From assembly GCA_000702025.1 (NCBI GenBank), contig JNKJ01000024.1, forward strand, positions 1 to 64,000: 64,000 nucleotides of DNA, in the 5' to 3' direction. The notes under the pieces were generated by a model. It saw only the letters and a list, made by a program, of their open reading frames with translations, searched no databases and was not told the origin of the DNA. Source of the DNA: Blautia schinkii DSM 10518. Lineage in GTDB: Bacteria; Bacillota; Clostridia; Lachnospirales; Lachnospiraceae. Positions within the stretch are counted from its first letter, which is position 1. Each line of letters starts with the position of its first letter. Position numbers and translations under genes: made by a program. Shown here in pieces: positions 41,572-59,498 of the stretch.

Positions 41572-44133
41572 TCATCCCCCAAGTATAGTCTCCGGCATTG
41601 CAGTCATAGCGCATTCCATAATCGCCTCCTGAGTAGCCTTGCCGCCTTCAAATTCTCCTGTCTGTGTGCCCTCGGCCAGTACCACAATGCGGTCGCAGCA
41701 TCCAATAATCTCCGGCAGCTCGGAGGAAATGAGTATGATGGCGATGTGCTGCCTTGCAAGCTCTCCAATCAAACGATGAATCTCAGCCTTAGCTCCCACG
41801 TCAATACCACGGGTAGGCTCGTCCAATATGATCAGAGAAGGCTTACATGCCAACATTTTTGCCAAACAGCATTTCTGCTGGTTTCCGCCACTGAGACGCC
41901 CGATTGCCTGCTCATCGGATGCCGCTTTGATACGGAATTTTTCCATATACTCACCGCTTAACCCGCGCTCCCGGTCCGTATTCCGATAACCTTTATTACA
42001 AAGCTCTTCCAGAGCCGCAAGACATATATTCTCCTTAACACTTCTCAAAGGAATGATCCCTTCCCCGCGCCGGTCCTCTGAAACGTAGCAGATACCATGC
42101 TTTAGCGCCTCTTTGGGCGAATATATTTTGAGTTTTCTGCCATTCAGGAAAAGCTCTCCGCTATCATACTTATCCATACCGAAAATGCAGCGCGCAATCT
42201 CAGTCCTGCCGGCGCCCATAAGCCCGGAAAATCCCAGCACCTCTCCGGCACGTACCTCAAAGCTGATGGGAGCAAAAACACCCTTACGGCCAAGATTGAC
42301 AGCCTGGAATACCACCTCGCCAAGTTCTGTCTTTTCCCTGTTGAAAATATCCTTGACTTCTCTGCCCACCATCAGTCTGGTAAGGTCATCCTCATTTGTC
42401 TCTGAAATAGCCATTGTTTTCACATGTTCACCATCACGGAGCACGGTGACTTCATCGGCAATCTCGAATATCTCCGGCATTCTGTGGGAAATATATACCA
42501 CAGCGATTCCTTGACGTTTCATTTCCCGGATAATGTCAAATAATTTATCCTTATCCGCCTCCGTAATCGCAGAGGTCGGTTCGTCCATGACTACAAACCA
42601 CGCATTTGCAGAAAAAGCCTTGGCTATTTCCACCATCTGCTGCTGGCTCACACTCAGCTCCCGGATTTTTTTCGTGACATTGGAATTAAAGTGGAGCTGC
42701 TGCATAAGTCCCACAGCGCTTTTCAGCATTTGCTTCACAGAAAGGAAGAGTCCCTTGCTTCGTAACTCCTTGCCAAGGAAAATATTTTGTACAATATTAA
42801 GCTCAGGCACCAGGGCAAATTCCTGATAAATCACGGATATACCCAACTTCCTGGAGTCAACTGTAGAGTGAATTTCCACAGGCATGCCGTCAATCGTAAT
42901 GGTTCCTCCGTCACGCTGGTAAACACCGGATAATATCTTGATCAAAGTCGATTTTCCGGCACCGTTTTCCCCAAGCAGAGCATGTACCTTGCCGCTCTCT
43001 ACCTTAAGAGATACACCTTTTAACGCGGGTACCCCGGAAAAGCTCTTGCTTATCTGAGACAGCTCCATAATATGATTCTTATTTTTTTCTACTGCCTCAA
43101 GAGCCTTCTCATTGACAGAAGAATCTTTTAAGGTTTTCCCGGCCTTCACCGCATCTTTTACCAAACTCACCATCTGATTAGAGAGCACGGCTACCAGTAC
43201 GAATACCCCCTGTATAATGTAGTTAGAATAAGAGGGTATATTGATCATATTGATTCCAAGGGTAAGAACGCCCATCAAAAGACTGCCAAGGAAAATCCCG
43301 GCCATTGTTCCCACACCGCCCAACAGACTGATACCGCCCATGACCACAGCAGTGATAACGTCAAACTCAAGTCCCGTCCCGGCAAGAGGCTGTGCAGAGC
43401 TGGAACGTCCGATGGTAATGATTGCGGCCAATCCGCATAATGCACCTGAAGTCAAATAAGTTTTAAAAATTTCCTTTTTTACATGAATACCTGAAGCATA
43501 GGCTGCCGTAGGATTGCCGCCCACAGCGTAAATCCTGATTCCGGTGGCAGAATGCTTCATCCAGAACAATGCAACTATAATCGCCGGTATCAATATCACT
43601 GTCACGTTTGGAACAATGAGGGCTCCTATGTGAAACTGACCGCCTCCCAGCCAGTTAAAATATGCATTTTTCACCACGATTCTCGAACCATCAGTTATCA
43701 TCATCGTCAGTCCCCGGGCAAAGGTCTGCATCGCCAAAGTAACCATAAACGGACTAATTTTCAGATAGCCACAGAGATAACCGTTCGCCGCTCCCACAAG
43801 GCACCCCACAACAATGGATGCGGCCATGCCGAGAACTGCACTGACAGGACTCTCTCCACCTGCAGCGTTTATCACCACGGCGGCTGACGCGCCTGAAAGT
43901 GCCATAGTTGCGCCTACAGACAAATCAATACCTCCGGTGAGAATTACCAGCGTCATGCCGATTGCTAAGATGATAAGTACCGTTGACTGACGAATCAAAT
44001 TAGTGATAGTCATCAATTTTACAAAGTTCGGTATTTTGATTGAAAATAGCACCAGAAAGCCGACAATAATTACCAGCAAAAACAAATATCGCTTCTGTTC
44101 TGCAGTTAGTTGTTTTTTGTTTTGTTTATTCAT
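41572..44133 (-). CDS. Fused ribose-type ABC permease and tandem ATPase (RbsC-RbsA fusion)
   Basis: An 853-aa single ORF. Residues about 1-330 are an RbsC/XylH-type permease (GGIDLSVGA near 67-75, MGGISLLGGVGTMAG, about ten membrane segments). A short linker (about 330-352) leads to an RbsA-type double ATPase. NBD1 has GENGAGKST (388-396), an LSVSQQQ signature, VMDEPTSAI and ISHRMPE; NBD2 has LSGGNQQK and LDEPTRGIDVGAK. All motifs are complete, so both parts should work. In this importer family the permease and ATPase are normally separate proteins. A second, free permease (45309-46280) is in the same operon, so a hetero-dimeric importer is likely. Confidence 0.88.
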   Translation of the reverse strand: MNKQNKKQLTAEQKRYLFLLVIIVGFLVLFSIKIPNFVKLMTITNLIRQSTVLIILAIGMTLVILTGGIDLSVGATMALSGASAAVVINAAGGESPVSAVLGMAASIVVGCLVGAANGYLCGYLKISPFMVTLAMQTFARGLTMMITDGSRIVVKNAYFNWLGGGQFHIGALIVPNVTVILIPAIIVALFWMKHSATGIRIYAVGGNPTAAYASGIHVKKEIFKTYLTSGALCGLAAIITIGRSSSAQPLAGTGLEFDVITAVVMGGISLLGGVGTMAGIFLGSLLMGVLTLGINMINIPSYSNYIIQGVFVLVAVLSNQMVSLVKDAVKAGKTLKDSSVNEKALEAVEKNKNHIMELSQISKSFSGVPALKGVSLKVESGKVHALLGENGAGKSTLIKILSGVYQRDGGTITIDGMPVEIHSTVDSRKLGISVIYQEFALVPELNIVQNIFLGKELRSKGLFLSVKQMLKSAVGLMQQLHFNSNVTKKIRELSVSQQQMVEIAKAFSANAWFVVMDEPTSAITEADKDKLFDIIREMKRQGIAVVYISHRMPEIFEIADEVTVLRDGEHVKTMAISETNEDDLTRLMVGREVKDIFNREKTELGEVVFQAVNLGRKGVFAPISFEVRAGEVLGFSGLMGAGRTEIARCIFGMDKYDSGELFLNGRKLKIYSPKEALKHGICYVSEDRRGEGIIPLRSVKENICLAALEELCNKGYRNTDRERGLSGEYMEKFRIKAASDEQAIGRLSGGNQQKCCLAKMLACKPSLIILDEPTRGIDVGAKAEIHRLIGELARQHIAIILISSELPEIIGCCDRIVVLAEGTQTGEFEGGKATQEAIMECAMTAMPETILGG

Positions 44134-49525: not shown

Positions 49526-51154
49526 ATGTATAAGGTATTAATAGTTGACGATGAGATCTATGTGGTAGCTTTAATCCAAAAACTAATTGATTGGGAAAAG
49601 TTCGATATGCGTGTAGAAGCTACGGCAAATGATGGGATTACGGCTCTGGAGCTGGTCAAGGAGATAAAACCGGATCTCGTGATCGTGGATGTGCGTATGC
49701 CTGGATATGACGGTATATCCTTTATGGATAAGGTCAGAGAATTTAATGAGAACGTAAGATTTATTGTAATCAGCGGACATAAACAGTTTGACTATGCCCG
49801 CGGGGCCATGCGCAATAATGTAGAGGATTATCTTTTAAAGCCTATCAATAAGGAAGAATTAGAGAGTGTCATTGGCCAGGTCCATGATAAATTAATCATG
49901 AACCAGAAAAAGGAAACCCATATCAAAGAGATGAAAGAAGAATTGGACACAAGCAAAAGACGTATCCGCGAATCCTTGATCAAAGAACTGCAAAGGGAAG
50001 GCAGTGAAGAGTTTTCACTTAGTTTGGATAAGCTTAACGAGCATTACCTGGTAAACCTGCAGGAAGGGAACTATCAGATGTGCATGTTAATCTTGGATGC
50101 ACCTGTGAAATTTGACACTTCTGCAGACAGGGATTTGTTATTTTATAAGATTCAGGACAGACTTGCAGGGGAACTAAGGAGATTTTGTCTTGAGGTTATT
50201 GATATGGAGCAGGAAAATATCATCTTCTATCTCCTTAACTACAAAAATGGAACCCAGGAAAAAATCAGCAGCATGCTGCATCAATTGATGCGTGAATACC
50301 GGGGGCAGATTCAGAAGTTCGGGCAGGTCAGTCTTACCGTTTGTACCGGGACTGTATATGAAAGCTTTGACCAACTTGGCAGCGCCATCCCCGAGCTGTG
50401 CCGTCTGGCGGCGTCTCGGTGTGCATTAAGCGAATTGAGAGTTATAGAACCCGGTGATATAAAAACCGAAGGAAATATTCTTCCCGCAATCTGGGAGTTT
50501 GGTGAAGAAAAACTGCGAAAAGCGTTGACAGAACTAAATGTTGAGGAGTTGTTACATTGCATTCGGGAAATGTTTTCCAGGGCATTCTACGGGATTGAGG
50601 AAGACTCCCTTCTTTATTACAGACTGTATCTGGAGCTTTGTGCAGAGATATATAACTATTTTTCTAATATAGGAATGCTTCAGGAAAGTGAGAAAGAATT
50701 TAATCAGCGCATGTCTAAATGTTTCCTGCAGACATCAAACGTAAGATTATATGGAAAACTTCTGTGCGATGAGGTCCAACGTCTGATTAATGAGAATCAG
50801 CTGTCTGAAGTCAGCCAGGCAACTCCTACGATTCGTATTGTAAAAAGGTACATTACAGAGCACTATATGGAGGAAATCTCACTAAGCACAGCGGCACAAG
50901 TCGTAAATTTATCACCTGTTTACTTAAGCCGTCTTTTTAAAAAGGAGGAAGGCATCAATTTTCTTGATTATGTAAACCAATACAGGATTGAAGTCGCAAA
51001 AAAATTCTTAAGCGATATCAATTATAATGTTCTGGAAGCAGCCGATCTTTCTGGTTTTAAAAACACACGGTATTTTTCAAAAATATTTAAAAAAGCAGTG
51101 GGAATCACTCCATCAGAATACAGGAAACGTCATCTTGGGAAAGAGAGAGGTTAG
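49526..51154 (+). CDS. YesN-type response regulator (receiver plus AraC helix-turn-helix)
   Basis: A 542-aa regulator starting MYKVLIVDDE (ATG at 49526 after GGGGG). The receiver domain (about 1-120) has D8/D9 and phospho-acceptor D55 (VIVDVRMPGYDG). A central unassigned region (about 150-420) is followed by an AraC-type DNA-binding domain (about 440-540: ISLSTAAQVVNLSPVYLSRLF). It is 9 bases upstream of its YesM-like kinase and probably controls the transporter operon at 53.8 kb (inference). Confidence 0.9.
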   Translation: MYKVLIVDDEIYVVALIQKLIDWEKFDMRVEATANDGITALELVKEIKPDLVIVDVRMPGYDGISFMDKVREFNENVRFIVISGHKQFDYARGAMRNNVEDYLLKPINKEELESVIGQVHDKLIMNQKKETHIKEMKEELDTSKRRIRESLIKELQREGSEEFSLSLDKLNEHYLVNLQEGNYQMCMLILDAPVKFDTSADRDLLFYKIQDRLAGELRRFCLEVIDMEQENIIFYLLNYKNGTQEKISSMLHQLMREYRGQIQKFGQVSLTVCTGTVYESFDQLGSAIPELCRLAASRCALSELRVIEPGDIKTEGNILPAIWEFGEEKLRKALTELNVEELLHCIREMFSRAFYGIEEDSLLYYRLYLELCAEIYNYFSNIGMLQESEKEFNQRMSKCFLQTSNVRLYGKLLCDEVQRLINENQLSEVSQATPTIRIVKRYITEHYMEEISLSTAAQVVNLSPVYLSRLFKKEEGINFLDYVNQYRIEVAKKFLSDINYNVLEAADLSGFKNTRYFSKIFKKAVGITPSEYRKRHLGKERG

Positions 51155-51163
51155 GGTGGTTTT

Positions 51164-52231
51164 ATGAGACAAAGGAGGTTTTCCGGAAAACTTTCAGGTA
51201 ACCGTGTGGCTCTGGTTCTGCTTGGGAATCTGGTTGTAATAGCTTGTGTATATTTATTTTTCGGATGGATTTTAGGGGTACGCAGGGCGGATATGGCAAA
51301 TAGTATTCCCTCGGGTTGTTTTACATACCGTGAAGCAGCACTGTGTCTTGTTTTTTCGGCAATCATCAATGGCGTGGCTAATTATAAGCTTATCATCCGT
51401 CCTCTATGGGATGTCGAAGAATCTGTACGCAGTTACCAAGATATTCTGGTCGATGACGAGTTCTTTGCTGTCCCCAAGGAATTGGAAAGCGGCGATATTA
51501 AGACCGCAATCCAGTATCTTCTGAAGCAGCAGAAACTTGCCCATGAAAAAGAAAGAATTGAGGAAAAGCAAAGGAAACGCACAGAATTATATGCTCTACA
51601 AACCCAGATTGACCCACACTTTTTATATAACGCTCTTGATTCTATACGAGGTTATGCTCTTCTCCATGATATGGAGGAGATTTCCGATATTACAGAGGCT
51701 TTGTCCAGGGTATTTCGAAACATGATTTCAGACAAGCATGAACTCCTTCCCCTTCGACAGGAGGCTGATAATATCAGGAATTATATGAAAATCCAGCAGT
51801 TTCGGTTCAACAATAAATTCTCTTATAGTTGTGAGATTGGAGAAGAGCTTCTGGATAAATACATGATTCCACGAATGGTACTGCAGCCCTTGGTAGAAAA
51901 CGCAATCATGCATGGCCTGGAACGGAAAATGGAAGGTGGATGGGTGAAAGTGCGGGCCTATACCACAGAAAGAAGATTTGTCCTGACCGTCACGGACAAT
52001 GGTGTTGGTATCAGCGAAGAACGTCAGGCATTCCTCAACGAGGCTATGACCCAGGAACCTAGAAGGTATGAGATGAATGTTGATTCCAATCATGTGGGAA
52101 TCGCCCTCATTAATATCAACCGCAGGATTAAGTTGAATTTTGGCAAGCAGTATGGTATCTCTCTCTCCAGCACACCCAATGTAAGAACCACCACCGAAGT
52201 GGTGCTGCCACTTTTACTGAACAAAAAATAG
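51164..52231 (+). CDS. YesM-type sensor histidine kinase lacking an extracellular sensor domain
   Basis: A 355-aa kinase. Two membrane helices (about 14-38 and 55-74) are joined by only about 17 residues, so the Cache-type extracellular sensor usual in YesM kinases is absent. A short HAMP-like segment (about 78-125) leads to the His_kinase domain with H152 (IDPHFLYNALDS) and a HATPase (VENAIMHGLERK, TDNGVGIS). The signal must therefore reach it within the membrane or cytoplasm. It lies 9 bases before a degenerate ABC ATPase gene, a strong clue for transporter-mediated sensing (inference). Confidence 0.88.
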   Translation: MRQRRFSGKLSGNRVALVLLGNLVVIACVYLFFGWILGVRRADMANSIPSGCFTYREAALCLVFSAIINGVANYKLIIRPLWDVEESVRSYQDILVDDEFFAVPKELESGDIKTAIQYLLKQQKLAHEKERIEEKQRKRTELYALQTQIDPHFLYNALDSIRGYALLHDMEEISDITEALSRVFRNMISDKHELLPLRQEADNIRNYMKIQQFRFNNKFSYSCEIGEELLDKYMIPRMVLQPLVENAIMHGLERKMEGGWVKVRAYTTERRFVLTVTDNGVGISEERQAFLNEAMTQEPRRYEMNVDSNHVGIALININRRIKLNFGKQYGISLSSTPNVRTTTEVVLPLLLNKK

Positions 52232-52240
52232 GGGACACAA

Positions 52241-53692
52241 ATGAAAAAAGAACTTCTTCGAATGCAGAAAATAAAGTTTTCTCAAAACAGTATAGACTTT
52301 GTGGAAAACGGATGTTTCCATGTATTTAAAAGCGAAACCGTCGGACTTGTAGGACGGAACCATTCAGGGAAAAGCACCCTTCTGGGGGCAGCTACCGGTG
52401 AATTCCCCTGCCAGGAAGGTGATATTTGGGTTAATGAGCAGCGGAAACAGATAACCTCTATAGAAGATGCAAGAAAAGCGGGAATATTTCTAATCAAAGA
52501 CGGCAGCTCCCTGATTTCAGAATTCACTATCCGTAATACAATGAAACTCAATTTTGCTTTTGTAAAAAAACGTGAACATTATAGCCAATATATGAAGAAA
52601 TGCAGAGAAACTCTGCGTATGCTTGACGTGCAAGAAGATACAGATACACGAATACGCGACTTGAATTTCCATAAAAGAGTGCTTATAGAAATCGCACAGG
52701 CCCTTGTGTGTGACGCTTCTATACTTGTATTTGATAATGTAATCAGTATGTTGTCCAGACCGGCCTGTGAACAAATGGAAAATATTTTTCGCATGTTTAA
52801 GGTGCGGGGAGGAAGTGTCATTCTCATTGAAAGTCAGGCAGAAGGTATTTTGAAATATTCGGACAGATTGTGTGTCATGCGCAAAGGCAGAGTTGTGGGT
52901 GAACTGGAAAAAGGGGAAATGGAAAGAGATTTAATACTTTCCCTTATGGATGGAGAGCGTTTTGTACCGAAGTTAGCAGCTTTTCAGTTATCCGACCATA
53001 TAACAAGGGGACGGGAAATACTTGCTTTTCACAACGTATACTCGGCAGATCATGTACTAAAGGGATTGAATTTTAAATTATATTCCAATGAAGTTTTGGG
53101 AATTTGGAACAGGAACCGCCATTCAGGAAAAGCAATCCTTGATGTGCTGGGAGGGGAAAAAGGCATATTATCTGGAAGTATTTCCATTGATGGGGTGGCT
53201 TTTGAGGGGCAAGAAGGAATCAGTAACAAGAATATAGGGTTATATTTAATTCCTGAGGAAGATGAGCTTTGCACAAATATGAATTTGGAAGAAAATATCA
53301 GTCTTTCCTCACTAAAGAAAAATTCTTATAAGGGATTTGTAAAAAAAGAAGGGGAACTCAGATATCTGGTACATAATTTGACCAGCGAATATATGGCAGG
53401 GAACGGATACCGAATCTTTCCCAATCAGGTAGTTCCCGATAATGTGCTCATACAGAAAAAAACTGCACTTTGCAGAGCCATAGCCGGAGATGCAAGGATT
53501 CTTGTATATAACAATCCTTATTTGAAAATGGATTACCGGGAACGGGAAATATTCAGCCAGGATATCTTAAAGACTCATAAAAAACAAATAGCCCAATTGA
53601 TCATCTCAGCACAGCTGGAATGTCTGTATCCTGTATGCAGCCGCATTATTAGGCTGGATGAAGGAAAAATCACGGAAGTAATCAGAAAGTAA
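52241..53692 (+). CDS. Catalytically degenerate RbsA-like tandem ABC protein
   Basis: A 483-aa paralogue of sugar-importer ATPases in which the reaction chemistry is lost. NBD1 keeps Walker A (G38-RNHS-GKST), but the Q-loop Gln is Lys86, the LSGGQ-type signature is LNFHKR (141-146), the Walker B Glu is Asn166 (ILVFDNV), and the switch His is Ser198 (LIESQ). NBD2 has NRHSGKAI, no recognisable signature (VPDNVLIQKK) and Walker B changed to LVYNNP. It could still bind ATP in NBD1 and dock to a permease. It sits in the two-component operon and before the active RbsA operon, so a regulatory role is likely (inference). The frame is uninterrupted, so this is not a decayed pseudogene. Confidence 0.88.
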   Translation: MKKELLRMQKIKFSQNSIDFVENGCFHVFKSETVGLVGRNHSGKSTLLGAATGEFPCQEGDIWVNEQRKQITSIEDARKAGIFLIKDGSSLISEFTIRNTMKLNFAFVKKREHYSQYMKKCRETLRMLDVQEDTDTRIRDLNFHKRVLIEIAQALVCDASILVFDNVISMLSRPACEQMENIFRMFKVRGGSVILIESQAEGILKYSDRLCVMRKGRVVGELEKGEMERDLILSLMDGERFVPKLAAFQLSDHITRGREILAFHNVYSADHVLKGLNFKLYSNEVLGIWNRNRHSGKAILDVLGGEKGILSGSISIDGVAFEGQEGISNKNIGLYLIPEEDELCTNMNLEENISLSSLKKNSYKGFVKKEGELRYLVHNLTSEYMAGNGYRIFPNQVVPDNVLIQKKTALCRAIAGDARILVYNNPYLKMDYREREIFSQDILKTHKKQIAQLIISAQLECLYPVCSRIIRLDEGKITEVIRK

Positions 53693-53732
53693 ACAGATAC
53701 CGGAAATAGTCATGACCGGTATCTGTTTTTTT
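53691..53732 (+). terminator. Terminator between the two-component operon and the transporter operon
   Basis: AAACAGATACCGG pairs with CCGGTATCTGTTT (53716-53728), followed by more T (to 53732). The stem starts at the stop codon of the degenerate ATPase gene. Confidence 0.88.
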
Positions 53733-53873
53733 GTACAGAAATACTTATATCGTGTCCAAAATCAAAATTAATTGGTTGAAAATGTGCACATATTGTCAAA
53801 AATAGTACATGGTTTTGGTAAAAGTGATGCGATACAATACATACAACGACAGAACAGAGAAAGGAGTAAAAAA

Positions 53874-55361
53874 ATGATTGGTGATACAATTTTAAAGTTG
53901 AATCACGTCACTAAATTGTATCCTGGAGTAGTAGCGTTGGATGATATGAACATGGAGTTCAGGGAAGGCGAAGTCCATGCAATTGTAGGCGAAAACGGAG
54001 CGGGAAAATCCACTATGATCAAGACGATTTCCGGCGCCATCGAACCGACCCAAGGTACTATTGAAATTTCCGGGGAAGTTTTCCATAAGCTGACGCCGAA
54101 ACTTTCAAGAGAAAAAGGGGTGGCAGTCATCTATCAGGAATTCACTCTGGTTCCGGTACTTTCAGCGGCAGACAATATCTTCATGGGTGAATACATGATG
54201 AATGGTATGGTCCTTGACCGGAAGGGTATGGAGGCAAAAGCGCGGGAGTTGTTTGAGCGTCTGCATGTCAACATAGATCCACGTGCCAAGGTAGCAGATT
54301 TAACCACAGGCTTCCAACAGATTGTCGAAATCGCCAAGGCTGTTTCCAAGGATGCCAAAATCCTTATCATGGATGAGCCGTCCGCTCCTTTAACCATATC
54401 TGAAGTTGAAGCTATGTACGAAATTGTGGACAGGCTCAAATCGGAAGGTGTTACCATCCTGTATATCTCCCACAGAATGGAAGAAATTTTCCGGCTGTCC
54501 GACCGGGTTTCAATTATAAGAGACGGAAAATATATCACGACAGTCAATACTGCGGATACCAATAAGCAGGAATTGATCAAACTTATGGTAGGGCGGGAAC
54601 TCAATGAATCCTATCCAGAGCGGCAAAAAGAGGCAAAAGAAACAATCCTTAAGCTGGATAAGGTAAGCGGTAATGGAGTAAAAGACATCAGTCTTGAGTT
54701 AAAAAAAGGCGAAATCCTAGGCCTTGGCGGCCTGGTAGGTGCAGGGCGGACAGAATTGGCGCAGCTTATATTCGGTAGTGAAAAAATCACTTCAGGTGAA
54801 ATCATTTATAAAGGTAGGCCCCTTAAAATAAAAAACTGCCAGCAGGCTATCGAAGCAGGAATAGCTATGATCCCAGAAGACAGAAAACAGCATGGAGTCG
54901 TTCTGGATATGTCCATCATAGAGAATACTACAATGCCCTGCCTGAAACGTATTTCAAAATATTCTGTCATTAATCCTAAAAAAGAAGAAGATGTGACGGA
55001 AAGTTATAAAAAAAGTCTCCTGATTAAAACCCCCACGATCCGGCAGCTTGTAAAAAACCTAAGTGGAGGAAATCAACAAAAGGTAGTCCTTGCTAAGTGG
55101 CTTGCAATGAATCCAGAGGTTATCATATTTGACGAACCTACAAGGGGTATAGATGTGGGGGCCAAACAGGAAATCTATGACATAATGAATCAACTGGCAG
55201 ACGAGGGCAAAGCAATTATCATGATATCCTCAGATATGGAGGAATTGATAGGTATGTCCGACAGAGTCGTGGTTCTGTGTAAAGGACGGCTGGCAGGAAG
55301 TTTGAGTAAAGAAGAAATCTCCCAGGAATCTATATTAATGAAAGCGGCAGGTGCAGAATAA
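53874..55361 (+). CDS. Sugar ABC importer ATPase (RbsA-like, active)
   Basis: A 495-aa double ATPase; the ATG at 53874 follows AAAGGAG, better than the earlier in-frame ATG at 53772. NBD1: GENGAGKST, LTTGFQQIVEIAKA (a variant of the LSxGQQQ signature), IMDEPSAPLT, ISHRMEE. NBD2: GLVGAGRTEL, LSGGNQQKVVLAKW, IIFDEPTRGIDVGAK. It powers the RbsC-like permease that starts immediately after its stop codon. It is the intact counterpart of the dead paralogue upstream. Confidence 0.92.
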   Translation: MIGDTILKLNHVTKLYPGVVALDDMNMEFREGEVHAIVGENGAGKSTMIKTISGAIEPTQGTIEISGEVFHKLTPKLSREKGVAVIYQEFTLVPVLSAADNIFMGEYMMNGMVLDRKGMEAKARELFERLHVNIDPRAKVADLTTGFQQIVEIAKAVSKDAKILIMDEPSAPLTISEVEAMYEIVDRLKSEGVTILYISHRMEEIFRLSDRVSIIRDGKYITTVNTADTNKQELIKLMVGRELNESYPERQKEAKETILKLDKVSGNGVKDISLELKKGEILGLGGLVGAGRTELAQLIFGSEKITSGEIIYKGRPLKIKNCQQAIEAGIAMIPEDRKQHGVVLDMSIIENTTMPCLKRISKYSVINPKKEEDVTESYKKSLLIKTPTIRQLVKNLSGGNQQKVVLAKWLAMNPEVIIFDEPTRGIDVGAKQEIYDIMNQLADEGKAIIMISSDMEELIGMSDRVVVLCKGRLAGSLSKEEISQESILMKAAGAE

Positions 55362-56339
55362 ATGAAAAAGATTGTGAAAAGCAAAGAATTTGCAGTATCT
55401 ATGGTTCTATTAGCCTTAATCGTGTTTTTCAGCATTGTGTCACCACAATTTATGCAGGCGAAAAACTTCTTTAATATTGCCAAGCAGATTGCCACTGTAG
55501 GAATCTGTTCTGTAGGTTTCAGCTTCGTGCTGATCACAGGCGGTATCGATTTATCTGTAGGCTATCAGATATCTCTTGATATTGTAGTTACAGCAGTTTT
55601 AATGAATTCTTTTGGCGTTCATTGGGTATTAGCCTGCATCATAGGGATGGTTATGGGCACAGCCATTGGTCTGATCAACGGTTTGATTATTGTGGAAACG
55701 CACGTAGCGCCACTTATCGTAACCTTATCAATGATGACAATCCTGAAAGGTGTGAGCTATTTAATAACAAACGGCCTTGCAATTTTCAAGTTTAACGAAA
55801 CCTTTGTTAAGCTTGGACAGGGAACAATCGCTGAGATTGTCCCAATCTCTTTAGTGTTCCTCTTGGTTATCGTGATTGTGGGTGTGTTCATTCTCAATAA
55901 AACAATTTATGGCCGCTATTTCTACGCTATAGGAAATAATGTGGAGGCGGCAAAGCTATCTGGTGTGAATGTAAAACGCGTCCAGCTGCTGGCTTATGGT
56001 TTATGTGGTTTTTTCACCTCTATCGGCGCCATTCTCATGCTCGCCAGACTTAATTCAGCCCAGTCATCCACAGGTGACGGATACGAGTTCAGTTGTCTGA
56101 CAGCATGTGTTGTAGGCGGCGTCAGCTCCAACGGAGGTAAAGGAACAGTGCTTGGAGCTATCATCGGATGTCTGATCGTAGGTGTACTGGAAAACGGATT
56201 GGCTATCATGAATGTCAATGAATATGTGCAGGAAGTTATCAAGGGTCTGGTTCTTCTCCTGGCAGTGGTATACGATACCATGTCCCTGAGAAAGAATGAA
56301 AAGGTTAAAAAGATCAAATCCATCAATGCAGAAAATTAA
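55362..56339 (+). CDS. Sugar ABC importer permease (RbsC-like)
   Basis: A 325-aa membrane protein with about ten helices, directly abutting the ATPase gene (stop TAA, next ATG). Motifs: GGIDLSVGYQ, VETHVAPLIVTLSMMTIL, and ACVVGGVSSNGGKGT. It should form a homodimer in the inner membrane with the ATPase and binding protein. Candidate docking partner for the degenerate ATPase. Confidence 0.92.
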   Translation: MKKIVKSKEFAVSMVLLALIVFFSIVSPQFMQAKNFFNIAKQIATVGICSVGFSFVLITGGIDLSVGYQISLDIVVTAVLMNSFGVHWVLACIIGMVMGTAIGLINGLIIVETHVAPLIVTLSMMTILKGVSYLITNGLAIFKFNETFVKLGQGTIAEIVPISLVFLLVIVIVGVFILNKTIYGRYFYAIGNNVEAAKLSGVNVKRVQLLAYGLCGFFTSIGAILMLARLNSAQSSTGDGYEFSCLTACVVGGVSSNGGKGTVLGAIIGCLIVGVLENGLAIMNVNEYVQEVIKGLVLLLAVVYDTMSLRKNEKVKKIKSINAEN

Positions 56340-56369: not shown

Positions 56370-57329
56370 ATGAAGAAAAAAGTTTTAAGCGTACTTTTAG
56401 GTGCAGCAATGGTTACTGGTATGTGTCAGGGTGTATTTGCAGAGCCTGCCGATACATACACGGTAGGAATGACTCTGAATCTTGGAAATCTTACATGGGC
56501 AGAGCTTGCAGAAGCGGCCAAGGAGCACGGCAAAGAACAGGGAATGACTGTCACAGTGCAGAATTCCAATGATAATGCCACCACTCAGGTATCCCAGATT
56601 GAAAACTTCATTCAGTCAGGTGTTGATGCTATCATCGTTGCAGCTGTAGAGTCAAACTCTGTGGAGGATGTGTGTAAGGAAGCACAGGAAGCCGGAATTA
56701 AGGTTATCGCTTATACCCAGGTAATTGAAAACTCTGATGCAGAATATCTGGTAGATGCATACAATACAGGATATGCCTGTGGAGAAAGAGCTGCACAGTG
56801 GATTAAAGAAGTTTACGGTGATGACGAAGTAGAGTGGGCGTTGGAAGATCTGCCTAAATACCCGGAGATTATCGACCGTGCAAACGGCATAAAAGAAGCA
56901 ATTGAAAAAGAAGCTCCAAACGCTAAGCTGGTGGCAACACAGCCTGCAGAGGTTATGGAGGACGGACAGAAAAATGCAGAAAACTTCATGCAGTCACATC
57001 CTGATATCAAAGTAATCTGCTCCATTGGATCCGGCGGCGGTGCTGGAGCAAATGAAGGTGTGAAATCCTACATTTCAGAAGATGATTACGATACATTTGG
57101 AATTTTTGGTATTGATGCAACAGAACAGGAAATTATGAATATCATTAACGGGGATCCTCAGAAATCTTCTGTAAGTCTTGGAGGCGGAGCTGTACACGGC
57201 GAACGTTTAATTGACATCGCATATAATTTCTGGCAGGGAATCGAGCAGGAAAAAGAGCAGTACATGCCTATTACAGTCATTGATTCCAGCAACGCTCAGG
57301 AATATTATGACGAACACTATGCTAAATAA
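56370..57329 (+). CDS. Sugar-binding protein (RbsB-like)
   Basis: A 319-aa type I binding protein. The signal peptide (about 1-24) ends VFAEP, a signal-peptidase I site; as in the other operon there is no lipobox, although a Cys (C19) lies nearby in GMCQG. Binding-fold segments include VSQIENFIQSGVDAIIVAA and FGIFGIDATEQE. The third gene of the transport set, followed by a hairpin that probably stabilises its mRNA. Confidence 0.9.
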   Translation: MKKKVLSVLLGAAMVTGMCQGVFAEPADTYTVGMTLNLGNLTWAELAEAAKEHGKEQGMTVTVQNSNDNATTQVSQIENFIQSGVDAIIVAAVESNSVEDVCKEAQEAGIKVIAYTQVIENSDAEYLVDAYNTGYACGERAAQWIKEVYGDDEVEWALEDLPKYPEIIDRANGIKEAIEKEAPNAKLVATQPAEVMEDGQKNAENFMQSHPDIKVICSIGSGGGAGANEGVKSYISEDDYDTFGIFGIDATEQEIMNIINGDPQKSSVSLGGGAVHGERLIDIAYNFWQGIEQEKEQYMPITVIDSSNAQEYYDEHYAK

Positions 57330-57403: not shown

Positions 57404-58465
57404 ATGACTAAAATGATGAAAGCACTGGTATCCTATGCACCTTACGACAATCGTTATGAGGATTTCCCAAAACCCACAGCCGGAGAAGGTGAAATCGTCC
57501 TTAAAGTAAAAGCCTGCGGTATCTGCGCAGGTGATGTAAAAGCTTATCACGGAGGAATCCGTATATGGGGGACCTGCGAAGAGGACCGTTATATCGAGGC
57601 TCCGTGCGTAGGCGGACATGAGTTTTATGGTGAAGTTGTAGAAATTGGAGCAGGCGTAGAGGGCTATGAAATTGGTGATACCCTTGTCTCCGAGCAGGTA
57701 ATCCCCTGCGGTGAGTGCGAATTCTGTAAGCAGGGTATCTACTGGATGTGCACCCGCTCTGCTGTTTTCGGATTTAAGCAATATGCAAACGGCGGCTTTG
57801 CAGAATATGTAAAGCTTGATAAAAATTGTATCAACCACAAAGTACCTGATGGCTTCACACAGGAACAGGCTGTACTTATAGAGCCTATCGCATGTGGAAT
57901 GCATGCAGTGGAAAGAGCACAGATCCAGCATAGTGATGTTGTTGTCATTGCCGGTCTGGGTGCGATAGGAACGTCTATGGTGAATCTTGCCAGCCTCGCT
58001 TTACCGAAAATGGTGATCGGGATTGACGTAAGAGAAAACCGTCTGGAAATGGGCAAAAAGTTCGGCGCTGATGTAGTGCTGAATCCAACAAAATGTAATG
58101 TAGCCGAAGAGATACATAAACTTACAGGCGGCCTTGGATGCGACGTATATATTGAGGCATCCGGAAGTCCCAGAAGTGTAACTCAGGGAATGGATTCTTT
58201 GAAAAACCTGGGCAGATATGTTCAGATGGGTGTTTTCGCAGAAGAAGTTAAGGCAGACTGGAATACCATAGGTGACGGCAAAGAGCTCACTATTATAGGT
58301 TCACACCTGTCAGCCAAGACCTACGCTTCTGTTATCAAAGGAATTGCCTCCGGAGAGATCAAAACAGAAGGGCTTATCTCACACAAATTTAAGCTTGCTG
58401 ACTGGAAAGAGGCTTTTGAAACCACAGAAGCGCCAGATGCCATGAAGATTATGCTGGAACCATAA
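57404..58465 (+). CDS. Zinc-dependent medium-chain dehydrogenase (sorbitol/threonine dehydrogenase-like)
   Basis: A 353-aa NAD(P)-dependent polyol or alcohol dehydrogenase. The catalytic zinc site has C38 (CGICAGD), H72-E73 (GGHEF) and E160; the structural zinc site has C102, C105, C108 and C116. The Rossmann motif is GLGAIGTSM. It would oxidise a sugar alcohol or secondary alcohol taken up by the transporter encoded upstream. AAAGGAG precedes the ATG. Confidence 0.87.
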   Translation: MTKMMKALVSYAPYDNRYEDFPKPTAGEGEIVLKVKACGICAGDVKAYHGGIRIWGTCEEDRYIEAPCVGGHEFYGEVVEIGAGVEGYEIGDTLVSEQVIPCGECEFCKQGIYWMCTRSAVFGFKQYANGGFAEYVKLDKNCINHKVPDGFTQEQAVLIEPIACGMHAVERAQIQHSDVVVIAGLGAIGTSMVNLASLALPKMVIGIDVRENRLEMGKKFGADVVLNPTKCNVAEEIHKLTGGLGCDVYIEASGSPRSVTQGMDSLKNLGRYVQMGVFAEEVKADWNTIGDGKELTIIGSHLSAKTYASVIKGIASGEIKTEGLISHKFKLADWKEAFETTEAPDAMKIMLEP

Positions 58466-58475
58466 TGAGGACTCT

Positions 58476-59498
58476 ATGAACAAAGAAAAATATAAATACA
58501 TAGGAAATCTTTCTCAGCTCCTGCGGGTGGAAAACTTCCGCATGGAGGGCGGACGCAGTGATAATGTCCGAGCTACAGCTGTCACTAATGAAAACGGACT
58601 TTCCTATACTGTGATTGCCGACAGGTGTATGGATATTGCTTATCTATCTTATAAAGGTGTTAATATAAGCTTTATAAATCCTAATGGTATCGTGGGGCCT
58701 CAGTATTATGACAGAGTGGGAACAAACTGGCTGAAAAATTTCACAGCAGGATTTCTCACCACCTGCGGACTTGATAATGTTGGGAATCCGTGTATGGACC
58801 AAGAGGAGCTGGGACTCCATGGAAGCATTTCCAATACACCTGCCCAGGATTACAGTGCAGTAATCGTTGAGGACAAAGGTGAAAATCAGGTTTGTATCAG
58901 AGGCACTATGAATGACAGTACACTGTTTGGCCGAAGACTAAAATTAAACAGAACCATCACCTCCTTCCAGGACAAGGATAGGATAATACTGGAAGATGAG
59001 ATTGTGAACACTGGCTTTGAACCGGAGGAATACATGCAGTTATACCACTGTAATATAGGGTATCCTTTCCTTTCACAGCAATGCAGTTTGTATATTAAGT
59101 CTGACTCCGTGACAGGAGCAAACCCTTTCTCTGAAGCAAATAAGGATAAGTGGAATACCATGGAACCTCCCTCAAAAATCGGAGAGATGTGCTTCATTCA
59201 CGACATAAAAGATGAAAATGGACTATGCCGTGCCGGAATGTTTAATGATAAGCTTCATATAGGATTTATTTTGAGTTATAAAAAGGAAAGTCTTGACAAC
59301 TTCCTGCAATGGAGATATCTTCATGAGGGAGCCTACGTGGTGGGACTGGAACCGGCCACAAATCTTATCGGTGGAAAAGCCGAGGAGAGAAAAGCCGGAA
59401 GGATTAAAACAGTCGATCCAGGCTCTTCCGTAAAACACAAGCTACAGTTTGATTTTTATAACTGCAAAGAGGATTTTGAATCCAACTTGTTTAATTAA
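58476..59498 (+). CDS. DUF4432 (aldose-1-epimerase-like) protein
   Basis: A 340-aa protein of the galactose-mutarotase superfamily. It shows DRCMDIAYLSYKG, TCGLDNVGNPC, GLHGSISNTPA and LEPATNL, the pattern of DUF4432 proteins, which occur in sugar clusters and may interconvert anomers or bind sugars. Cytoplasmic; 10 bases after the dehydrogenase. Last gene of the operon. Confidence 0.82.
   Translation: MNKEKYKYIGNLSQLLRVENFRMEGGRSDNVRATAVTNENGLSYTVIADRCMDIAYLSYKGVNISFINPNGIVGPQYYDRVGTNWLKNFTAGFLTTCGLDNVGNPCMDQEELGLHGSISNTPAQDYSAVIVEDKGENQVCIRGTMNDSTLFGRRLKLNRTITSFQDKDRIILEDEIVNTGFEPEEYMQLYHCNIGYPFLSQQCSLYIKSDSVTGANPFSEANKDKWNTMEPPSKIGEMCFIHDIKDENGLCRAGMFNDKLHIGFILSYKKESLDNFLQWRYLHEGAYVVGLEPATNLIGGKAEERKAGRIKTVDPGSSVKHKLQFDFYNCKEDFESNLFN

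Follow-up and report, generated by a model that had tools for sequence, protein, structure and literature searches.

The described systems that come closest to the present locus are those in which a transporter, or one of its parts, takes part in signalling by a two-component system. In PstSCAB-PhoU-PhoR, an ABC importer informs a kinase without a canonical periplasmic sensor via a separate cytoplasmic protein, as described in an extract of PMC6978683. The same extract treats the flux-sensing system BceAB-BceRS, in which a kinase with a very short ectodomain is encoded next to ABC transporter genes, the ATPase is active and the function is detoxification (PMC6978683). For XylFII-LytS and CuaDSR, an extract of PMC10384115 describes a sugar importer operon under the control of a kinase and a regulator, with the binding protein working together with a large kinase ectodomain.

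The locus considered here lies in a window of 64,000 nucleotides from Blautia schinkii DSM 10518 (contig JNKJ01000024.1, positions 1 to 64,000, forward strand). It encodes a YesM-type kinase without a sensor domain and, directly behind it, an RbsA-like protein that has lost its catalytic residues (hereafter pseudo-RbsA). The gene of this protein is intact and conserved, is constantly linked to sensor-less kinases of one clade and is followed by a conserved promoter site. As in PstSCAB-PhoU-PhoR, the proposed path would run from an importer via a cytoplasmic go-between to a sensor-poor kinase, whereas the go-between would here be a dead importer-type ATPase, the kinase and regulator form a YesM/YesN pair and the importer is of the sugar type (by comparison with the extract of PMC6978683). 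No match to PhoU was detected among the nine window proteins scanned, and the go-between candidate matches ABC_tran. The placement of a short-ectodomain kinase gene beside an ABC transporter is shared with BceAB-BceRS, but the additional ATPase-like protein is dead and the permease is RbsC-type (PF02653), as part of a ribose-type importer (by comparison with the same extract, PMC6978683); the comparison with Bce is an analogy only. With XylFII-LytS and CuaDSR, as presented in the extract of PMC10384115, the locus would share a transport component that helps a kinase-regulator pair to control a sugar importer operon; unlike in those systems, the kinase lacks such an ectodomain and the helper is a cytoplasmic protein, which would make the module their inside counterpart. 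By the features tested, the system in the window is a member of none of these groups, and no description of a kinase/pseudo-RbsA module was found in the open-access papers searched. The features of the locus are as follows (window coordinates, strand, assignment and basis):

49526..51154, +, YesN-type response regulator (receiver and AraC-type HTH); Response_reg and HTH_18 matches
51164..52231, +, sensor-less YesM kinase, 355 aa; His_kinase and HATPase_c matches, hydropathy
52241..53692, +, pseudo-RbsA, 483 aa, full-length double-NBD protein with catalytic residues lost; motifs, family conservation, fold
53691..53732, +, intrinsic terminator at the boundary between signalling genes and importer operon; fold of -18.9 kcal/mol, z -5.4
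53774..53802, +, conserved promoter footprint, candidate operator of the regulator; alignable block in 6/6 loci
53874..55361, +, active RbsA-type importer ATPase; two ABC_tran stretches, intact motifs
55362..56339, +, RbsC-type permease; BPD_transp_2 (PF02653)
56370..57329, +, RbsB-type substrate-binding protein; Peripla_BP_4
57404..58465, +, zinc-dependent dehydrogenase of the operon; ADH_N and ADH_zinc_N, present in 5/5 relatives with the same gene order
58476..59498, +, DUF4432 protein; domain match, with one also in L031 and L033

The regulator, whose frame is called from 48965 and most likely starts at 49526, likely controls the importer operon. The kinase contains both domains of the YesM family, His_kinase (PF06580) and HATPase_c, while the large extracellular sensor is absent. 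A hydropathy scan with a window of 19 residues put its two membrane helices at positions 15-33 and 60-78 of the protein. This leaves 26 residues between the helix windows, where most longer kinases in the census described below have 143-277. The first-pass annotation had counted about 17 residues outside the membrane, which is compatible with this gap if the helices extend a few residues beyond the hydropathy windows. The terminator consists of a hairpin at 53691-53728 with T's after it; none of 200 shuffled sequences folded as stably, and a simple consensus scan restricted to loops of 3-8 did not include this hairpin among its calls. Downstream, RbsA, RbsC and RbsB are all complete by their domain matches, and the RbsA motifs are intact. 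The earlier description of a terminator directly in front of a complete, active RbsA-RbsC-RbsB operon was thereby confirmed. Elsewhere in the window, an 853-aa frame at 41572-44133 on the minus strand scores against RbsA (358 bits) as well as RbsC (158 bits) and looks like a natural fusion of ATPase and permease, with further RbsC and RbsB genes alongside.

Like RbsA importer ATPases, pseudo-RbsA carries two NBDs in one chain and is RbsA-like over its full length, with a score of 129 bits against the RbsA model PRK10762 (cut-off 745) and a best score of 170.6 bits, below the curated NCBIfam cut-off of 699. Unlike them, it lacks the catalytic Walker B Glu, the switch His and the LSGGQ-type signatures, and it falls into a separate tree group. 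In NBD1, the P-loop Lys and the Asp of Walker B remain, while D-N replaces the D-E of Walker B, a Glu occupies the position of the switch His and LNFHKR stands instead of the signature; NBD2 has YNNP in place of DEP and is devoid of LSGGNQQ. The intact 483-aa frame with replaced Walker B Glu, signature and switch His, as first read from the letters, is thus borne out by the full-length match and the motif columns. An AlphaFold2 model of the monomer shows a confident double-NBD fold (pLDDT 86.5, pTM 0.82), and its top matches among solved structures are double-NBD ABC proteins of about 15% identity.

A search of 5.8 billion proteins returned 233 matches. Among the best 120 of these, 41 proteins, including that of the window, form a subfamily of 42-100% identity, below which an identity gap is followed by ordinary RbsAs at no more than 27%. 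Within the subfamily, the Walker B Glu is found in 0/41 proteins, the switch His is replaced by Glu in 41/41 and the P-loop Lys is kept in 40/41 (one gap), with N290, H294, S295 and G296 invariant. The subfamily is sparse, being present in 2/64 genomes of the genus at E 1e-60 and in 2/397 of the family at E 1e-120, the genome of the window included in both cases. An alignment-based search of genome contigs turned up four loci, including one with a distant ATPase, where an earlier scan had given none; a plasmid search gave no match. When the own-genome paralogue L051 was used as query, 375 proteins were obtained at E <=1e-30. Among the best 120 of these, the names span several clostridial genera, the switch His and the NBD2 Walker B Glu are kept in none and the NBD1 Walker B Asp in six, the P-loop is lost as a pattern and new motifs such as FLYICNHH and QPFSGAD are common to many. 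No fusion of kinase and pseudo-ATPase was present among the listed matches, in a search that admits proteins of up to 1.75 times the query length; members of the family reach at most 511 aa, and two listed matches above 800 aa carry permease domains.

The association with the kinase was followed in complete YesM censuses of three genomes (G000, the genome of the window, G148 and G098) and in a family and a class sample ranked by likeness to the kinase of the window. Kinases of up to 400 aa were counted as short; the loci of the class sample were measured from stop to stop with flanks of 1.5 kb only. G000 gave 60 YesM matches, corresponding to 59 distinct frames. All four short kinases (338-367 aa) are directly followed by an RbsA-like gene (466-489 aa), versus 0/55 of the other kinases, one of which (L068) is cut by a contig end; an RbsA-like gene lies less than 3 kb away, and non-adjacent, in eight of these 55. 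These 59 kinases, together with 145 ABC-ATPase matches to the dead-RbsA query, give this 6.7 Mb genome a very large sensing and import repertoire. The two other censuses, which leave out four weak rows (three in G148, one in G098; E 4e-5 to 8e-4), gave an RbsA-like gene directly after 4/4 sensor-less kinases versus 0/11 others in G148 and after 2/2 versus 0/1 in G098; one of the eleven others, a kinase of 333 aa, has no predicted membrane helices and differs in its N-terminal part.

Searching 250 genomes of the family with the kinase yielded 55 rows in 32 genomes, and all 55 places were read together with four known loci. An RbsA-like gene is located directly downstream of 53/56 short kinases, and in the remaining three (L174, L160 and L180) an RbsA-like or half-size NBD gene heads the same operon. 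The half-size genes, L160:9276-10031 (-) and L180:1608-2372 (+), encode single-NBD relatives that replace the full-length pseudo-ATPase; the L160 protein has kept Walker B and the His and lost the P-loop Lys. Among 291 genomes of the class, the gene follows 13/15 short kinases versus 0/6 longer frames (447-630 aa), the positives falling into seven further families. The two exceptions are L218, where a degenerate RbsA-like gene lies on the strand opposite to the kinase, and L219, which has no RbsA-like gene within the 1.5 kb flank. By a hand tally of all loci read (56 short kinases from the family, L192 and 15 from the class), an RbsA-like gene lies directly downstream of 67/72 short kinases (53 + 1 + 13, with L176 and L220 cut by a contig end) and in the same cluster in 71/72. 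The other YesM kinases number 77 (55 + 5 + 11 + 1 + 6, minus the duplicate L166/L203), and only one of them, L158, has such a gene directly behind it. Because all cases descend from one kinase clade, these counts are not independent events: 57 short kinases and the long L158 form a single clade with support of 100 among 113 kinases (FastTree). The assignment of the dead ATPase to the kinase is upheld by this adjacency, by a divergence that tracks kinase and regulator, and by a kinase-RbsA correlation that disappears once the pseudo-ATPase is accounted for. At L158:5882-9139, a kinase of the sensor-less clade with a 218-residue ectodomain precedes a half-degenerate RbsA-like protein.

Degeneracy was scored on eight residues of ATP site 1, using exact alignment columns. 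Full-length RbsA-like proteins behind short kinases are degenerate in 51/52 cases, whereas 47/52 other RbsA-like proteins of the same loci are complete; of the other five, three are cut by the end of the stretch, the two-NBD protein of L190 does not align at the scored columns and the dead protein of L174 belongs to a kinase operon. The Lys column of the P-loop is kept in 32 of the 52 kinase-linked proteins and its Ser/Thr in 20. The only complete kinase-linked protein is encoded at L142:5940-8523; this RbsA-like protein behind a short kinase retains every scored site-1 residue and branches close to where the kinase-linked and importer groups meet. Since long branches are a concern in the FastTree analysis, a mixture model was applied and nine kinase-linked rows with long or doubtful branches were dropped. 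The resulting tree separates 44 kinase-linked proteins from 30 importer RbsAs (of 52 importer rows) by a branch with SH-aLRT 99. The intact L142 protein branches between both groups in this tree and on the importer side in the 105-row FastTree, in which the kinase-linked group needs two changes because L142 and the dead L174, which carried an importer-ATPase label in that set, each sit on the opposite side. L142 and L158 look like possible evolutionary intermediates. The pseudo-ATPases form one clade and their kinases another; the module is old and has one origin. With a mean identity of 22% among the kinase-linked RbsA-like proteins of 42 loci, the pairing of kinase and pseudo-ATPase has outlasted extensive divergence.

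Gene order could be compared directly in relatives, a check proposed in the first-pass annotation, and it is kept in five. In L031, L032, L033, L038 and L055, as in the window, regulator and short kinase come first, followed by the dead RbsA, the active RbsA, RbsC, RbsB and the dehydrogenase. Apart from L055, which is more distant in all proteins of the locus, the transporter proteins are 71-89% identical to those of the window versus 42-63% for kinase, regulator and dead RbsA, so that the dead RbsA evolves at the pace of the signalling pair. A close RbsB occurs in 3/397 genomes of the family, and the module is present in all three (L039, L038 and L055). The spacer between dead and active rbsA aligns poorly across six loci except for one block, in which two half-sites that resemble each other are spaced by about 20 bp. 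This block is alignable in 6/6 loci and occurs once in the window, with 0 occurrences expected. The window, L031, L033 and L038 share an exact copy of its strict 16-base core, and L032 and L055 carry variants. Situated upstream of the active rbsA, the block would suit the AraC-type regulator and is a candidate operator that links regulator and transporter.

Three lines point to the permease as a putative partner of the pseudo-ATPase: extra RbsC genes, conservation behind the Q-loops and correlated distances. An extra RbsC gene whose start is overlapped by the pseudo-ATPase gene is present in L164, L179 and L186; in the first two of these loci, a separate RbsC also lies beside an active RbsA. 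L174, L175 and L180 contain a binding protein and a permease with only degenerate or half-size NBD proteins and no intact RbsA in the stretch read, which is cut by a contig end in L174 and includes another kind of ABC ATPase further off in L175. These permeases retain a large part of the cytoplasmic RbsC motif. Several loci, among them L157, L144 and L149, yielded no RbsC in the stretch read; downstream of the module in L144, an 816-aa protein (L144:1213-3663, -) combines a cupin/AraC-type regulator and a glycosyl hydrolase family 39 domain in one chain.

The segment behind the Q-loop faces the permease in ABC proteins. In the 52 rows of the pseudo clade (about 32 effective), the catalytic residues are lost, but the Asn that follows the Q-loop is retained, just as active RbsAs have it, with conservation of 0.89 for NBD1 and 1.00 for NBD2; pseudo-RbsA of the window has a different residue at the NBD1 column. 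These segments are conserved in both large subfamilies, even without a P-loop. An E-x-L-R near the N-terminus, specific to the pseudo-ATPases (0.97 and 0.84), is a candidate site of contact with the kinase. Among 42 loci, the partial correlation of distances is 0.66 for pseudo-ATPase and kinase given RbsA, 0.46 for pseudo-ATPase and RbsA given the kinase and 0.03 (p 0.32) for kinase and RbsA given the pseudo-ATPase. The same three values are 0.67, 0.40 and 0.13 (p 0.058) without the orthologues of the window and 0.40, 0.21 and 0.07 after thinning to 25 loci. Distances of pseudo-ATPase and permease also correlate given the kinase (0.49). Mediation by the pseudo-ATPase is incomplete, since regulator and permease still correlate given the pseudo-ATPase (0.16 with p 0.002, 0.22 and 0.19 in the three sets), and noise differences between genes could contribute.

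It is proposed that pseudo-RbsA serves as the replacement input subunit of the kinase, docking on an RbsC-type permease and reporting substrate occupancy, a reading that we consider reasonably probable. The protein would derive from a ribose-type importer ATPase, with the double-NBD fold and the permease-facing segments kept and the residues for ATP hydrolysis lost. Docked on the permease of the neighbouring importer or, in some loci, on one of its own, it would form a receptor complex that does not pump. When the loaded binding protein docks on the outer side, the permease would shift, and the pseudo-ATPase would relay this shift to the cytoplasmic side of the sensor-less YesM kinase; the kinase would then phosphorylate the AraC-type regulator, which would act on the conserved site in front of rbsA to switch the importer operon. 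The contacts with permease and kinase, the occupancy signal, the sign of the response and the binding of the regulator to the site are what we infer. Occupancy is the likelier signal compared to flux, because pseudo-RbsA is without the residues to turn over ATP; the three loci with binding protein, permease and only degenerate NBD proteins in the stretch were counted in the same direction. Counted against the proposal were the intact kinase-linked RbsA of L142, the absence of an RbsA-like gene within 1.5 kb in L219, the descent of all cases from a single kinase clade, the incomplete mediation, the P-loop Lys kept in the window, the deviating residue of its protein at the NBD1 Asn column and the loci without an RbsC in the stretch read. 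A broader formulation, for which the chances are put at slightly below even, is a class of importers turned receptors, in which binding protein, RbsC-type permease and dead RbsA form the non-pumping sensor of a stripped kinase; it would have one old origin and several subfamilies and extend across the Clostridia, with some loci lacking an adjacent intact RbsA.

Other explanations have to be weighed against occupancy sensing through the permease. Loss of catalytic residues is also what a decaying duplicate of the neighbouring rbsA would show, yet the 41-protein subfamily, reaching down to 42% identity with invariant new residues such as E197, N290 and H294, and the separate grouping of kinase-linked proteins and neighbouring RbsAs in the trees reduce the chance of this to practically nil; a decaying pseudogene is ruled out by the family conservation and a recent local duplication by the trees. 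A role as importer brake or decoy, in which pseudo-RbsA and active RbsA compete for RbsC without any signalling role of the former, would be in line with the importer operon adjoining in most loci and with the pseudo-ATPase-permease correlation given the kinase (0.49). It is regarded as quite improbable, as the gene belongs to the operon of the kinase and frequently overlaps the kinase gene itself, as L052, L178 and L185 have their importer on the opposite strand, and as pairing in the G000 census is exclusively with sensor-less kinases.

An inside signal, as implied by the missing ectodomain, could also be a small molecule (a nucleotide or a product of the imported sugar) bound in the old ATP site of a cytoplasmic sensor without permease contact. 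The P-loop Lys, kept in 40/41 proteins of the window's subfamily and 32/52 kinase-linked ones, speaks for this, but the P-loop Ser/Thr remains in only 20/52, the P-loop pattern is lost in the best 120 of the 375 L051 relatives and the extra permeases beside the pseudo-ATPase stay unexplained, so that this alternative is rated unlikely. Nucleotide sensing as a common mechanism is weakened because the P-loop is lost in many members; in the window, where pseudo-RbsA keeps the P-loop Lys, nucleotide binding may still matter. Finally, pseudo-RbsA might merely stabilise or scaffold a kinase that senses by its membrane helices, with no link to the permease. Retention of an importer-ATPase fold with conserved permease-side segments, together with the extra RbsC genes, makes this very improbable, even though linkage to the kinase is stronger than linkage to the transporter (partial r 0.66 vs 0.46). 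Taken together, the small-molecule, brake and stabiliser explanations account less well for the combination of extra permeases and pairing with sensor-less kinases than the receptor reading does.

The module is much wider than the locus in the window alone had indicated. Clostridial genomes can encode dozens of YesM kinases with unassigned inputs (59 kinases in G000), and for the sensor-less clade the input part can be named from the genome. A likely job can be given to at least 161 ABC-ATPase-like proteins without catalytic residues (at least 41 of the window's subfamily and at least 120 L051 relatives), some of which are named sugar ABC transporter ATP-binding proteins and should not be counted as importers by annotators and flux modellers. 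The module also provides an example, open to testing, of how a component of a transporter may be taken up for signal reception. In gut and other clostridia, the pairing probably lets a sensor-less kinase read the state of an importer from inside the cell.
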